From the IMG/VR virus record IMGVR_UViG_3300008117_000011, positions 159,672 to 223,671 of that record: a stretch of 64,000 nucleotides of DNA; one strand, given 5' to 3'. This DNA comes from a virus. The translations under genes were made by a program, and so were the position numbers. The notes under the pieces were generated by a model that was not told the origin of the DNA, did not search any database, and saw only the letters and a program-made list of their open reading frames with translations. The stretch's first letter is position 1; every line of letters begins with the position of its first letter. Shown piece after piece: positions 19,346-32,938 of the stretch.

Positions 19346-21106
19346 TTGGATTTAAAAAATAATCTAATAGAACACAAAGCTCTTGATTTGTTAGACTCGT
19401 ATAGTGGTGCTAACAATTATATCCTTTATATGAAATCAAAAAAGGATGTAAATAAAAAGTTCTACCCCACAAGAACTCAGGCTGATTATATTATTAATTA
19501 TTTTGATGTAAAACCAAAGGTTGCAAGGAAGTGGGTTGATCTTGATTCTTATTTTGCAAATAAGTTTGCTAAAGATAGATACCTACTTGAAATACCAGAA
19601 AAAGTTTATATTGAAAAACTACTTGTTGAAAAAGATAAGTCCTACCATATTTGGGGTAAGTTCTTTGAGAAGGATAATTTATCAGAATTTTGGGTACCAA
19701 AATCATCATTAATAAAATCACATACGATAGAAAAGGTTGATATTGATTATTCTAAATATGGTCACAGACCACCTTTGTCTCACCAAAAAGAAGCGATAGA
19801 AAAACTTGTTGGGTCAAAAAGATTTATATTGGCAGACGATATGGGGCTTGGAAAAACAACCTCTACAATTATTGGAGCTCTTGAGACTGGTGCTAAAAAA
19901 ATTCTAATCATATGTCCAGCGTCACTTAAAATTAACTGGGAAAGAGAAATAAAAAACTATACCGATAGGAGTGTTTACATTTGTGAAGGAAAAAAATACT
20001 CAACAGATGAAGATTTTACAATTGTAAACTATGACATATTAAAAAACTTTTACGATCCTAAAGACAAAGAAAATTCTGAACTTGTTAAAACAAAATATGA
20101 TTTAGTAATTTTAGATGAAGCCCATATGGTTTCAAACGCTCAAGCTCAAAGAACAAAAATTATTAACAATTTTGTTAAAGATATAAAACAAGTTTGGCTT
20201 TTGACTGGAACACCAATGACATCAAGACCAATCAACTATTATAATCTTCTTAATATTATTGAAAGTCCGGTGGCACAAAACTGGATGGCGTATGCAATTC
20301 GTTATTGTCAGGGGTATCAGTTTAGAGCTGGTAATAGAAAAGTATGGAACGTAACCGGGGCTTCAAATCTTGAAGAACTCCGAGATAGGACATCAAAACA
20401 AATTCTTCGTAGATTAAAAGAAGAGGTGTTAGATTTACCTGAAAAAATAATAACCCCGGTTTATTTAAGAACCTCATCAAGAGAGTATAAAGATTTAATG
20501 GGTGAGTACTACGAGTGGTTAAAAAACAAAAAAGAAGAATCATCATCTCTTACAATTCAGTTCACAAAACTTATGAAAGTAAGAAAGGTAATCGCAAATG
20601 AAAAAGTTAAAGACACAATTGAGTTCGCACAAAATATTATAGACCAAGGAAAAAAAGTAATCATATTTACAAATTTTACCGATACCCTACAACTAATTCA
20701 TAATCACTTTGGTAAAGAATCGGTGTATCTTGATGGTAGTTGTAATAAAGTACAAAGACAATATGCTGTTGATCAATTCCAGGATAATGAAAAAATTAAA
20801 GTTTTTGTTGGTAACTTAAAAGCCGCTGGTGTTGGTCTTACATTAACCTCAGCCGAAGTTGTAATAATGAATGATTTATCTTTTGTTCCTGCGGAACACG
20901 CACAAGCTGAAGATAGGGCTTACAGATATGGTCAAAAAAATAATGTACTTGTTTATTACCCAATATTTGAAAACACAATAGAAGGTGTTGTGTATGATAT
21001 TTTAAATACAAAGAAAAAAATAATAGGGACTGTAATGGGTGATGAGGTTACAGAATCTTTTGACGTTGTTGAAGAAATCCTAAATCTTATAAACTCAAAA
21101 AGGTAG
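19346..21106 (+). CDS. SNF2-family DNA helicase/translocase
   Basis: All main SF2/SNF2 motifs are visible: motif I ADDMGLGKTTSTI (residues about 167-180), Ia ICPASLKINW, motif II LDEAHMV (about 255-261), motif III LLTGTPMTSRP, then in the second RecA domain IIFTNFTDTL, VFVGNLKAAGVGLTLT and QAEDRAYRYGQ (motif VI). It would move on double-stranded DNA using ATP, perhaps remodelling protein-DNA complexes during replication or transcription. About 150 N-terminal residues precede the helicase core. The only upstream start is TTG at 19346, since the first ATG would remove about 27 conserved-looking residues. It is divergent from the gp14-like gene. Confidence 0.93.
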   Translation: MDLKNNLIEHKALDLLDSYSGANNYILYMKSKKDVNKKFYPTRTQADYIINYFDVKPKVARKWVDLDSYFANKFAKDRYLLEIPEKVYIEKLLVEKDKSYHIWGKFFEKDNLSEFWVPKSSLIKSHTIEKVDIDYSKYGHRPPLSHQKEAIEKLVGSKRFILADDMGLGKTTSTIIGALETGAKKILIICPASLKINWEREIKNYTDRSVYICEGKKYSTDEDFTIVNYDILKNFYDPKDKENSELVKTKYDLVILDEAHMVSNAQAQRTKIINNFVKDIKQVWLLTGTPMTSRPINYYNLLNIIESPVAQNWMAYAIRYCQGYQFRAGNRKVWNVTGASNLEELRDRTSKQILRRLKEEVLDLPEKIITPVYLRTSSREYKDLMGEYYEWLKNKKEESSSLTIQFTKLMKVRKVIANEKVKDTIEFAQNIIDQGKKVIIFTNFTDTLQLIHNHFGKESVYLDGSCNKVQRQYAVDQFQDNEKIKVFVGNLKAAGVGLTLTSAEVVIMNDLSFVPAEHAQAEDRAYRYGQKNNVLVYYPIFENTIEGVVYDILNTKKKIIGTVMGDEVTESFDVVEEILNLINSKR

Positions 21107-21137: not shown

Positions 21138-23219
21138 ATGAGAGTTAAAGTAAAACACGTAAAATGTGATATGTCTGAAAAGGACAAAGAACTTATGAAC
21201 GATTTTATTAAGTTCTTACAGAAGAAGTATCCTTTAAAGGATGATATTACTATTATTTTTACCGGTGAAAGATATGGTAAAATGTCCACAGGTAGTAGGA
21301 CACAAGATTCTGAACTTAAGATTTTCACTAAAGACAGAATGAATAGGGATATTGTAAGAACATTAGCTCACGAATGGATACACGAAAGACAAATTAAAAT
21401 CCAAGGTAAAAAACCAAAACAAGATATTGGTGGTCCCCTTGAAGATGAGGCAAACGCAAAAGCTGGTTCTGCAATTAAACAGTTTGAAAAGGAGTTTCCA
21501 AAAAAAGAAGAGTTAATGTACGAAGGTATAAATAATAAGTTAAATCTGATTAACGAGCAAATCTTATTAAAGGAAAAGGAAAATATTAAAGGTGAGTTTT
21601 TAACCGAAATGAAAAAAATCGGTATTGAAAAATTACCTTATTCATATTCAGCTTTAAAACAATTTGTGGATCCGGAAACAATGGATATTCATTACAACAA
21701 ACACTATAAAGGTTATGTCAAAAAATTAAATGACGCTCTTTCTAATAAAAAAGGTGAAATGGAGCTTGAGGATATTGTAAAAACAATATCAAAGTTTAAC
21801 ACTAAAGTTAGAAACAATGCTGGTGGTGCTTTTAATCACGCGTTATTTTGGAAAATGTTATCACCAAAAAAACAATTACCAAAAGGTGAGATATTAGAAA
21901 AAATTACAAAACAATATGGTAACATCAAAAAAATGAAAGATGAATTCAATGATGTTGCTAAAGAAAGATTTGGGTCCGGATGGGTTTGGCTTGTTTTAAC
22001 AAAGACAAATAGACTTAAAATTATGTCAACACCAAACCAAGATAATCCACTTATGAATGTTATTAAAGATGGTGGATATCCACTTTTAGGTTTAGATTTA
22101 TGGGAGCATGCTTATTATTTGAAGTATAGAAATAAAAGGGATGAATACATTAAAAATTTCTGGAATTCTGTAAACTGGGAATTTGTAAATGAACTTTTTG
22201 TTTCAAAGACAACAAAAAAGTTAAATGAATCATATATGAAAATTTTATTAGAAAACGAGGATTTACAACCAGATCTGAAAAAAATTATGAGTCGTGAATT
22301 ACAAAAAATTAGACTTATACCATTAGATGCTGAGGCAGGAGCCGAAGCAATTAACAACATTACAACAGCTGAAATTTCAAGGGGGAACCTTGACTTTAAT
22401 AGGACTATAAGTGGACTTATGACTCTTGATTTATCAACTGTTTCTGAAAGATCAAAATATAGATTTAATAATTATTTTCAAAGATTTATTAAAAGCAAAA
22501 CTAGAGGTTTTGACTTTGAGGGTATGGTTACCGGATTTCTTGATGGTGAACTAGCAACAAGCTTATCGTCTCCTTATGATATCTCAACATCAGAGGGAGA
22601 TTTAATTTCTTGTAAAGTAGTTAGAGACACTAATGAAAGAATATCACTTAAAAGTATTAGGACTGGGGTTAAAGATTTTGTTGAGAAATACGAAGGGTCA
22701 GAAGAAAATAAATATATATTAAGTGGGTTAACTCAATTTCCAAATTTTTTAGAACTAGTTGTAACACACGAAAATTCAGATATACAAAATCAAGGTGAAG
22801 ATATTTTAAACAAATTACTTATTGATATTACAGGATTACTTGTTGGTGTACCAAACTCACAAAATCTTGGGGTTGATTTATACTACTATGATAAAGCTCG
22901 TCTAATTGAACTTGCTAAAACACCAGGAATTCTAAAAGCTGGAAGATCAGCTGAAGCTCAAACAATATCCTATTCGGCTAAAATACTTAAAATGGGTACA
23001 ACCAAAAGTGGGTTTATTCAGTTTCCGATTGTTACTCAAGAACAATATGCCGAATTTTTAATTGGTAATGAAAAAACAAAAGAAATTGTAAATATTTTTA
23101 ACACTATGGGTGAAAAATATGGAGTCCCAAGATTAGGTGACAATATCCCACAAGATATTATTAGGGATTTATCAAAAAATGAAAGATTCAAATTAGATAT
23201 TAGAAGAATACTTAAATAA
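21138..23219 (+). CDS. Metallopeptidase - superoxide dismutase - nuclease-like fusion
   Basis: This 693-aa protein has three parts. Residues 1-130 carry HEWIH (78-82) and a downstream LEDEAN (101-106), a zinc-metallopeptidase arrangement. Residues about 163-352 are a full-length Fe/Mn superoxide dismutase (LPYSYSAL; ligands H185, H234 in NHALFW, D320 and H324 in LDLWEHAYYLKY). Residues 373-693 are unidentified; FDFEGMVTGFLDGE, then YDIS and LISCK suggest a PD-(D/E)XK-type nuclease fold, weakly. The junctions hold L/I-x-E sites (INE 138-140, LKE 144-146, LLE 370-372) like T4 prohead protease targets. I infer a possible capsid-packaged polyprotein. The next gene is a gp13-like neck protein. Confidence 0.85.
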   Translation: MRVKVKHVKCDMSEKDKELMNDFIKFLQKKYPLKDDITIIFTGERYGKMSTGSRTQDSELKIFTKDRMNRDIVRTLAHEWIHERQIKIQGKKPKQDIGGPLEDEANAKAGSAIKQFEKEFPKKEELMYEGINNKLNLINEQILLKEKENIKGEFLTEMKKIGIEKLPYSYSALKQFVDPETMDIHYNKHYKGYVKKLNDALSNKKGEMELEDIVKTISKFNTKVRNNAGGAFNHALFWKMLSPKKQLPKGEILEKITKQYGNIKKMKDEFNDVAKERFGSGWVWLVLTKTNRLKIMSTPNQDNPLMNVIKDGGYPLLGLDLWEHAYYLKYRNKRDEYIKNFWNSVNWEFVNELFVSKTTKKLNESYMKILLENEDLQPDLKKIMSRELQKIRLIPLDAEAGAEAINNITTAEISRGNLDFNRTISGLMTLDLSTVSERSKYRFNNYFQRFIKSKTRGFDFEGMVTGFLDGELATSLSSPYDISTSEGDLISCKVVRDTNERISLKSIRTGVKDFVEKYEGSEENKYILSGLTQFPNFLELVVTHENSDIQNQGEDILNKLLIDITGLLVGVPNSQNLGVDLYYYDKARLIELAKTPGILKAGRSAEAQTISYSAKILKMGTTKSGFIQFPIVTQEQYAEFLIGNEKTKEIVNIFNTMGEKYGVPRLGDNIPQDIIRDLSKNERFKLDIRRILK

Positions 23220-23250: not shown

Positions 23251-24378
23251 ATGGCAATTATTGGTGAACCACAAAGAAGTCAACTATATACTAAAGTAAG
23301 ACATTTACTTGGTGCCCCACAAAGAAGTGTGGAATTAGAGGACGAACAAATGGATACATTACTTGAATTCTCAATTGATGAATATTCACAGTATGTCCAA
23401 GATTGGTTAATTGAATCTCAATGGACCGCTCTTAATAACTTAAATCTGGATACGCAATCTTTAAGTAGGGCTTTTACGACTAGAAGTTTGGATTATGAAA
23501 CAAGATATACTTACGCCTATTCTAAGATAGTTGGTTTGCAGGCCGGTGGTGAATGGGAATTAAAAAAAGATTATATACAATTAGTACCAAATCAACAGAT
23601 ATATGAAATACCGGCGGGTAGAGAATTAAATGAATTATTGTGGTTTACGCCAGCAACAATGAACAATATGTTATTTGATCCTTGGGCTTTTGGGGGTATC
23701 GCTGGTGGTGGTATTGCTGGTCCAGCAGGTTACGCTCAAGTTGGTAACTTATCTGGTAGTTACTTTATGATGCCAGCTTTTGATATGCTTTTAAGGATGC
23801 AAGAAATTAATATACAAAGAAGAATTATTGCTGGTGATTTAACTTATAGAGTAACCGCTCTTCCGGGTGGGAAAAAGGCGGTTCACTTAATGAACACACC
23901 AGGTGGTAAATTTGACTTTGGTAACTCAACCCTTATGAAGGGTAGAGTTTGGTATTGGTATTATGACACAACTGATGGTGACAAGGATAAGTGTCTGGCC
24001 GATAATCCGGATATTATTAAATTACCATCTGATGTTCCGTTTGACAAAATGAACTGGGATGAGTTAAATAATCCAGCACAAGTTTGGGTTAGAAGATGGT
24101 TTATCGCATATTGTAAAGAAACATTATCTAGAGTTCGTGGAAAATTTAGTGGTAACTTAAAAACTGGTGATGGTGGTGATTTAACAATGGATTATACCTC
24201 ACTTGCAACTGAAGCCAAAGATGAAAAGTCAAAATTAATTGAAGAACTAATTGGTGCTGAAGGAAGACTTACAAGATTGAAACCTGAAAAGGTTATGGAA
24301 AGGGAGGCTCTTATTGCTGAAAACTTAAATAAACAGCTCAAGTTTAGAGCGATGCCGAGACAAATTTATGTAATATAA
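23251..24378 (+). CDS. Neck protein, T4 gp13-like
   Basis: The 375-aa protein opens with VRHLLGAPQRSVELEDEQMDTLLEFSIDEY, matching the 'LGAP--NVELT-DQI---I--AL--Y' start of T4 gp13. Its C-terminal part VRRWFIAYCKETLSRVRGKFSG, then GGDLTMDYTSLATEAKDEKSKLIEEL, corresponds to the gp13 'VKAYA-ALAKE--G-I--KF-G--LPGG-TIDG--L--EA--EKE-L-EEL'. The middle has a Gly/Ala-rich stretch (GGIAGGGIAGPAGYA) and a MLLRMQEINIQRR segment. gp13 joins the portal vertex to the tail. It ends in TAATG shared with the next gene, indicating translational coupling. Confidence 0.8.
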   Translation: MAIIGEPQRSQLYTKVRHLLGAPQRSVELEDEQMDTLLEFSIDEYSQYVQDWLIESQWTALNNLNLDTQSLSRAFTTRSLDYETRYTYAYSKIVGLQAGGEWELKKDYIQLVPNQQIYEIPAGRELNELLWFTPATMNNMLFDPWAFGGIAGGGIAGPAGYAQVGNLSGSYFMMPAFDMLLRMQEINIQRRIIAGDLTYRVTALPGGKKAVHLMNTPGGKFDFGNSTLMKGRVWYWYYDTTDGDKDKCLADNPDIIKLPSDVPFDKMNWDELNNPAQVWVRRWFIAYCKETLSRVRGKFSGNLKTGDGGDLTMDYTSLATEAKDEKSKLIEELIGAEGRLTRLKPEKVMEREALIAENLNKQLKFRAMPRQIYVI

Positions 24379-31303: not shown

Positions 31304-32938
31304 TTAACATTCTTTTCTTAATTCTGCTGGATAAAAATCAAAACGATTATGTTCGGTTGGTGTTATAAGAAGAAGTCCAGGATTTAATTTACCTTTAACT
31401 AAATTTTGAAAGTTATGGGACATTAAAGTTTGTTCATAAGGATTGTCAAATTTTGTCTCAATATAACATTTGTAATTACCTTCTTTTGATAAGACAATTG
31501 GCCAATTAGAAAGATAGATTTCCCCACTAGCGTAGGGGATACCATTTAATGATTTTATATTTTTAAATTCTAGACTTGGGGCGCTTGGATCATAACCAAC
31601 AACTGGTAGATTTGGTTTTTCCGGCCAATGATTTTCTCTGAAACTTTGGGGTGTATTGTACCAAGCCCATTGTGTTGTGTGACTTCCGAAAAATTCAGTA
31701 AAATTTAATTTTAAAAAATCAAAATTTTCTTTTTTAATTATTTGTAATGACGTACTATATAAATTTTTTACTTTTCTATTAAAACCATTTTTACAAACAT
31801 CACAATCTTTAGTAACAAAAGCCATATCGTCCTCAAAGAAATAGTAATAACCCAAATCGTCTTGTTGATTAAAGTGTTCGGCAATAAATTGTCTACCACC
31901 GGTAATACCTATATTATCTTTTTTAATATGTTCAAAACCATATTGTGAACAAAGATTTAAATATTCTTTTGTTGTTGTTAAATCCGTTGAGTTATCCAGT
32001 AAAAATTTTTTTGTTTTTGTTATAAAATCTATATCGTACTCTAACATTGATTCAATTAAAGTTTCAAATTGTTTTGGTGAGTTAAACGTAATAACATATA
32101 GACCAACATCATTACCTTCTTTTTTTACTTTATTATTTTTAATATTTTCAAAAAACGTATATAATAAACCATCAGAATTAATAAGGTAATTATCAATTAA
32201 ATTTGGGTGTAAATAACTCATAATCGTAAAGATACTTTCTTCTGTTCCCATTAAATTATTATTTAATGTATGTGTAAGTAAACTATAATATATTGTGTTT
32301 AAATCGCTAATATATTTTTTAGGACCACCAAAAAAACCACCCCTACTTACATAGTTTGTTTTTGTTTTTGCATACTCACATAACTTATCGTATGAAAATC
32401 CGTGAACCTCTGTGTTTGCCTCATATGGAAAAGATATAAATAAAAACTTATCGTATTTTTTATTTATTTTCTCAAGAACATTATCATTTGTGAAATATCC
32501 TGGACTTACTGTGTTTGAGATTCCAGCGTCAATCCAGAATAGTTTTTCAGAATTAAATTTATCTAAAATTACAGCATCGTGCAGTAAAAACATTTTAGAC
32601 ATTACAATTGGATTATACATCTCAAGTTTTGCTTGTGTTGATTCTTTTAACCAACCAACTTGATTGTACCAATTTTCATTTGTTCTTATTTTTTGTATTT
32701 TGTCAAAAAATTCATTATTTCTAAACCAAGAAAGGTCCCGGATAATAAATTGTGTTTTTGACATATCCCTTCTTTCACTAACAAATTTATAAAGAGATTC
32801 GTCCCCAAAAATTATGAGATTACAATCAATTTTTAATAAATCATCAAATTTATTTAAATAGTAATCAAAAGACCTATTCCATCCTTTTTCTAAATTACCC
32901 CTACCAATATCCCATAATCCGGTAACAAGTGTCATCAT
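31304..32938 (-). CDS. Two-domain glycosyltransferase: HtrL/YibB-like plus GT-A
   Basis: The N-terminal half (residues 1-260) resembles the HtrL/YibB/WlaTC family: LVTGLWDIGRGN, RSFDYYLNKFDDLL, IIFGDE, then LFWIDAGISNT and RGGFFGGPKKYI. That family is tied to capsule or lipooligosaccharide synthesis. The C-terminal half (about 270-540) has a GT-A-like core: VGLYVITFNSPKQFETLIESM, then ITGGRQFIAEHF and a metal-binding YYFFEDDMAF. Its 3' region ends KGKLNPGLLLITPTEHNRFD. The stop-proximal TATTTAT element belongs to the next gene, and this gene overlaps the upstream GT by 4 bp (ATGA-type), so both are co-translated. The acceptor sugar or protein is unknown. Confidence 0.75.
   Translation of the reverse strand: MMTLVTGLWDIGRGNLEKGWNRSFDYYLNKFDDLLKIDCNLIIFGDESLYKFVSERRDMSKTQFIIRDLSWFRNNEFFDKIQKIRTNENWYNQVGWLKESTQAKLEMYNPIVMSKMFLLHDAVILDKFNSEKLFWIDAGISNTVSPGYFTNDNVLEKINKKYDKFLFISFPYEANTEVHGFSYDKLCEYAKTKTNYVSRGGFFGGPKKYISDLNTIYYSLLTHTLNNNLMGTEESIFTIMSYLHPNLIDNYLINSDGLLYTFFENIKNNKVKKEGNDVGLYVITFNSPKQFETLIESMLEYDIDFITKTKKFLLDNSTDLTTTKEYLNLCSQYGFEHIKKDNIGITGGRQFIAEHFNQQDDLGYYYFFEDDMAFVTKDCDVCKNGFNRKVKNLYSTSLQIIKKENFDFLKLNFTEFFGSHTTQWAWYNTPQSFRENHWPEKPNLPVVGYDPSAPSLEFKNIKSLNGIPYASGEIYLSNWPIVLSKEGNYKCYIETKFDNPYEQTLMSHNFQNLVKGKLNPGLLLITPTEHNRFDFYPAELRKEC

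Follow-up and report, generated by a model that had tools for sequence, protein, structure and literature searches.

An open reading frame (ORF) at positions 21138-23219 of a 64,000-nucleotide stretch of viral DNA (the window; positions 159,672 to 223,671 of the 223,671-base IMG/VR contig IMGVR_UViG_3300008117_000011) is likely to encode a cargo polyprotein made by a large, T4-like freshwater phage, which would be packed into the prohead and cut there by a gp21-type protease, freeing three enzymes. The ORF begins with ATG, encodes a single chain of 693 amino acids (aa), and is genuine and conserved in relatives. Its product comprises, in order, a zincin-like domain, an Mn/Fe superoxide dismutase (SOD) and a PD-(D/E)XK-like domain (Table 1). 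In the AlphaFold2 (AF2) model, these three ordered parts are accompanied by two segments, residues 129-171 and 360-378, in which the predicted local distance difference test score (pLDDT) falls below 50, and which coincide with the domain junctions at which a first-pass annotation of the window had flagged L/I-x-E tripeptides. The prohead protease of T4, gp21, cleaves on the C-terminal side of L/I-x-E and takes off N-terminal targeting peptides (PMC9026906, PMC9958956). In the mechanism that we infer, the precursor would be drawn into the prohead by way of its leader and linker peptides, and the protease would cut after L/I-x-E at E157↓M, E364 and E372, probably also at E140, and the peptidase would end at E129. 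Once freed, the three enzymes would be retained by the mature head and reach the host along with the DNA. There the SOD would clear superoxide at an early stage of infection, and nucleic acid would be the target of the nuclease-like domain.

IMG/VR searches found stretches with relatives of the whole query (293), of the peptidase domain (493) and of the SOD (at least 592). The best 80 of each search were read, about 200 distinct loci in total, and all counts of relatives given here come from those samples. Their architectures include a peptidase-SOD form of about 360 aa, the same form with a C-domain added, and an SOD behind a leader, with a C-domain in some cases; the domain order of the 693-aa protein, which the first-pass annotation had proposed seeking in other metagenomic phages, does recur there.

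Nine L/I-x-E tripeptides occur in the 693-aa protein, five of them inside the 52 linker residues (Fisher p=2e-4). In a 36-row alignment, the linker sites are kept at E140 in 36/36 rows, E146 in 31/36, E157 in 36/36, E364 in 23/26 and E372 in 23/23, whereas the tripeptides inside folded domains are kept in just 9/36, 17/36, 23/36 and 4/21; conservation of the motif is confined to the linker sites. Positions 138 and 155 (P3, where P1 is the residue preceding the cut) are solely L or I in 80 distinct proteins, and positions 140 and 157 (P1) are solely E, while the residue between them varies. This combination of an L/I-only P3, an invariant E and a free P2 is as expected of a protease site and not of helix packing. 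Position 146 is E in 70 of these proteins, D in 9 and Q in 1, with K or R at P3 in 11, and E146 was discarded as a key cut site because its conservation is not strict. Asp at P1 is known to block processing of the capsid-targeting sequence (CTS) of T4 (PMC9026906). Immediately before the SOD, the motif is present in 151 of 152 distinct SOD proteins (V-L-E in the exception, L287), followed at P1' by M in 148 proteins and A in 4, and E157↓M is predicted to be the decisive site. The ORF, the HEWIH motif, the four SOD metal ligands and the tripeptides at E140, E146 and E372 were all as the first-pass annotation had described them, but its list of sites lacked E157 at the SOD start, E364 and the invariant E129. 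Loss of the junction sites in homologues had been named beforehand as grounds for giving up the polyprotein; the homologues keep them. In the second linker, residues 361-373 resemble the MNLxESIRRILREE leaders found at the N termini of other genes on the same contig, ranking 20th of 64,017 13-mers scored with a leader matrix.

The identity of the central domain as an SOD is beyond doubt, and its enzymatic activity is predicted. Both Pfam domains exceed their cut-offs (Sod_Fe_C, 3.6e-39; Sod_Fe_N, 1.2e-21), the four metal ligands are invariant across 36 homologues, and the best solved match is the Sphingobacterium MnSOD 6gsc (9.2e-60 by sequence, 3.0e-17 by Foldseek), which bears out the earlier description of a complete Fe/Mn SOD core. 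All 49 of the 49 SOD proteins that have no peptidase domain keep L/I-x-E before the SOD start. In these proteins the linker takes the form of an N-terminal leader, 27-30 aa long in most and variable save for L/I at P3 and E at P1, after which the chain reads MK(K/R)IGIEKLPY, or AKKIGIEKLPY in four. Because relatives lacking the peptidase domain carry it at this place, linker 1 is best described as the SOD's own N-terminal leader. Most of the cellular SODs retrieved, where their starts could be read, begin about 10-15 residues before the point corresponding to E157↓M and have no 27-30-aa leader; Paenibacillus SODs bear an N-terminal domain of an unrelated kind, and Romboutsia has a signal-like N terminus. 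The nearest cellular SOD among those retrieved, from Fluviicola, is 51% identical. Judged by these sequences, the leader is specific to the phage SODs relative to the cellular SODs inspected.

For the third domain, which is PD-(D/E)XK-like, a nuclease-like function is predicted. Its AF2 model has a mean pLDDT of 88.5 and a predicted template modelling score (pTM) of 0.83, and all eight top PDB matches in Foldseek are the restriction endonucleases NhoI and Eco15I (prob 0.96-1.00), a fold similarity in agreement with the first-pass annotation, though the best E is just 4.6e-3. NhoI is also listed by the sequence profile, at a non-significant E of 1.3. The domain core has an invariant E, D and S-x-K, with S standing where D/E is expected. 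A homologue of this domain occurs alone in locus L155, behind its own leader with IAE and LNE, and adjoins a gene that by eye resembles an alternative C-terminal module. Three C5-cytosine DNA methyltransferase genes (PF00145, 144-163 bits) lie in tandem at G000:C1:106210-108793 (L087), and are of interest given the likeness of the C-domain to the methyl-dependent NhoI. Comparison of the relatives indicates that the C-terminal effector is exchangeable. Several types of C-terminal module are present, single linkage having merged some of them, and several of the alternatives carry a G-x-D...Q-x-K pattern that by eye is nuclease-like. All 114 of 114 C-terminal extensions, which are not independent of one another, show [LI]xE within the first 30 aa, compared with about 30% of internal 30-residue stretches of the genome, and most of these junctions have S, N, G, T or A at P1'. 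The 958-aa protein of L239 consists of five modules, with INE at 368, 504 and 621, that is, at every later joint.

Two other accounts of the linkers bear on these data. The protein might be a cytosolic multifunctional enzyme, the product of an auxiliary metabolic gene joined to further activities, whose linkers are plain helical spacers that undergo no processing. SODs are already annotated in other phages, the linker is modelled as a helix, though with low confidence, and the presence of the SOD fusion in virions is itself deduced from sequence, all of which would suit such an enzyme; a plain spacer, however, leaves unexplained the restriction of 155 to L/I and of 157 to E around a free P2, the retention of the N-terminal leader in relatives without the peptidase, and the [LI]xE at the joints of unrelated C-terminal modules, and we regard this account as unlikely. 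The chain might instead be packaged, in association with the scaffold, and stay uncut or be cut once, with the other sites serving targeting and not release. The atypical P1' residues at E140 and E146 are in keeping with this, as is position 146 with its frequent D, or K at P3, given the effect of D at P1 on the T4 CTS. Retention of E157, E364 and E372 even where modules have been exchanged argues against it, as do the P1' residues at the C-terminal junctions, and we give it little credence.

The N-terminal domain is a putative peptidase of zincin-like type, with HEWIH followed by EDEA. Among its homologues HExxH, G98-G99 and E102-D103-E104 are invariant, and the structure model places helices at 69-87 and 100-119, such that HExxH and the downstream Glu lie in adjoining helices, as in zincins. 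Several zincin families in Pfam are matched below threshold by individual members, and searches with the domain found no Pfam match over cut-off and no PDB match. Stand-alone 129-aa versions, found in two lineages (L210/L212/L214 and L396 of G013), terminate with MYE at the residue equivalent to E129 of the fusion. Synechococcus phage S-SRM01 has a stand-alone 132-aa homologue (L426 2444-2842) with HEFIH and ENEANAKAG and with neither leader nor fusion.

A protease of the required type is present in this group of phages. Peptidase_S77 and Gp23 profiles were matched far over their cut-offs in six relatives, three of which (G001, G008 and G010) carry the full three-domain fusion on the same contigs, so that a prohead protease and the capsid protein gp23 are placed in the same phage group through relatives. 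The major capsid proteins of the relatives read LINE↓ATSE, a predicted site, at the place aligned with the cut in T4 gp23, LTE↓A. The leaders could in principle be read by another system, be it a different protease of phage or host, or could serve as a signal for an intracellular compartment. They stand on many genes of unknown role and are much longer than the ~10-aa T4 CTS; the motif, however, matches the specificity of gp21 exactly, S77 proteases are encoded by these phages, and the same INE appears at the predicted capsid protein maturation site, which together make this explanation very improbable.

Several observations count against a cargo polyprotein cut by the prohead protease. The head genes are missing from the window's own record, a profile search of which found no S77 protease or gp23, and the contig is probably a fragment. 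The first-pass annotation had looked to the MKxYxxFIxEA targeting peptides of T4 and to a gp21-type protease and capsid site in this genome: the protease and the capsid site were found in the relatives and not in this record, and the N-terminal leader in the SOD-only relatives and not on the 693-aa precursor, which has no N-terminal CTS and opens directly with the peptidase domain. Targeting of the three-domain chain would in consequence rest on internal peptides, and the likeness of the leaders to the T4 CTS is put forward as a functional analogy and not as homology. P1' is mostly Met at E157 and mostly Gln at E140, whereas T4 and the capsid proteins of the group have Ala, and E129 fits the motif loosely, with M/V/I at P3. 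Finally, the S-x-K of the NhoI-like core, as against the D/E-x-K of most PD-(D/E)XK enzymes, makes the activity of the third domain uncertain. The prohead-cut polyprotein nonetheless passed every sequence test available, among them two of the three refuting conditions set by the first-pass annotation (loss of the junction sites and lack of a prohead protease, the latter judged from the relatives), with its details altered: the site before the SOD takes the place of E146, and the first linker is the SOD's leader.

The features are collected in Table 1. Among 107 loci, a helicase signature lies upstream of the fusion-family gene in 104, and a neck signature downstream in 52, some loci being short.

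Table 1. Features of the fusion gene and its neighbours, in window coordinates (arrow, predicted cut)
Feature	Coordinates	Strand	Basis
Module 1, zincin-like putative metallopeptidase, residues 1-129	21138..21524	+	HEWIH 78-82, ExE 102-104; end = invariant E129
Linker 1 / SOD propeptide, residues 130-157, L/I-x-E at E140, E146, E157	21525..21608	+	AF2 pLDDT <50 over 129-171
Predicted maturation cut E157↓M158, immediately before SOD	21606..21611	+	[LI]xE here in 151/152 distinct proteins
Module 2, Mn/Fe superoxide dismutase, residues 158-357	21609..22208	+	H185, H234, D320, H324; Pfam PF00081/PF02777
Linker 2, residues 358-374, L/I-x-E at E364 (LNE↓S) and E372 (LLE↓N)	22209..22259	+	pLDDT <50 over 360-378
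Module 3, PD-(D/E)XK-like domain, residues 375-693	22260..23216	+	NhoI/Eco15I restriction endonuclease likeness
SNF2/UvsW-like helicase, conserved upstream neighbour	19346..21106	+	PHROG DNA helicase 4.4e-107
Neck / head-tail adaptor protein, downstream neighbour	23251..24378	+	phrog_211 head-tail adaptor 2.9e-9

Similar leaders occur elsewhere. In the first 60 kb of the same contig, which is outside the window (G000:C1:1-60000; L082-L085), nearly the same N-terminal peptides (MKKVIRLTESDLxRIVKRVISE, MKIIITESQ and MNLQESIRRILREE) recur on dozens of small genes, and L/I-x-E lies within the first 30 residues in 48 of 82 genes, compared with a background of 34% (p=4e-6). An enrichment across the whole contig was dropped from consideration, being real solely below 60 kb. 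These leader-bearing small genes possibly encode a large set of head-packed proteins. A 227-aa protein (L083, G000:C1:29731-30414) has the leader at its N terminus and again at residue 117 and is possibly another two-module polyprotein; further internal copies are found in the genes at 32709 and 39709 (G000). The cultured Flavobacterium phage immuto (L432-L440) likewise has repeated leaders, MENFDLKKFLVEN in four genes and MKKSQLR/MKKSELV, with L/I-x-E in the first 30 residues of 55/153 genes versus 24% (p=6e-4); it encodes an S77 protease but not the SOD fusion. A tblastn search with the type-A leader peptide as query gave no match in phages. On balance we favour the broader view that maturation-cleaved cargo polyproteins are a feature of this group of tailed phages, with module order and C-terminal effector freely exchanged, within a larger arsenal of leader-tagged, head-packed and injected proteins that would include a particle-delivered SOD. 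If so, one gene would load several enzymes into the phage head, a leader with L/I-x-E would provide a sequence handle for predicting the injected proteins of large uncultured phages, and the notion of superoxide as an obstacle to the phage during the first minutes of infection would become testable.

Eukaryotic RNA viruses characteristically make polyproteins that are then cleaved into individual working enzymes, and we know of no cleaved multi-enzyme polyprotein described as head cargo of a tailed phage. In the literature searched, whose scope left out most subscription papers, no enzyme chains split by such sites, with exchangeable modules and an SOD, were found. Bacterial Mn/Fe SODs such as those of Sphingobacterium (6gsc, 44% identity in the Foldseek alignment) and Fluviicola share the full catalytic core, but those inspected have neither the 27-30-aa leader nor these fusions. 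NhoI and Eco15I, which are methyl-dependent restriction endonucleases, share the fold of the C-terminal domain at low sequence identity, and the phage core differs in its S-x-K. The SOD-like EST35_0261 of the Pseudomonas jumbo phage PA5oct (L425 1468-2016) has an N terminus, MNDSIKKYISIAE↓A, near the T4 CTS, and its genome encodes an S77 protease, but it is distant (27% identity) and unfused; the ESI-MS/MS (electrospray ionization tandem mass spectrometry) note in its record was set aside as proof of a virion SOD, since ribonucleotide reductase and thymidylate synthase also carry that note. The ejection proteins of phiKZ and SPN3US type are likewise packed in the head and lose propeptides, of 20 to 254 aa in SPN3US, to a prohead protease cutting at x-x-E (PMC10052503); their motif, however, is S/A-x-E and the propeptide is thrown away after the cut, while the linkers of the present protein stand between enzymes. 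A close parallel in processing is with IPI, IPII, IPIII and Alt of T4, which also have a short leader ending in L/I-x-E, in a phage group with a T4-type protease and major capsid protein, and are presumed to enter the host (PMC9026906, PMC9958956). As in such gp21-processed internal head proteins, a conserved L/I-x-E stands between leader and mature domain; because the 693-aa protein has no N-terminal CTS, it is likened to them here and not classed among them. In T4 each gene supplies a single cargo protein with one short leader, a CTS removed by gp21, whereas here several enzymes, among them SOD and nuclease-like modules, are chained with sites between them. Leader-tagged internal proteins cut by gp21 and ejection proteins cut at S/A-x-E are already known from T4 and phiKZ-like phages, respectively; the chained multi-enzyme form would be new.
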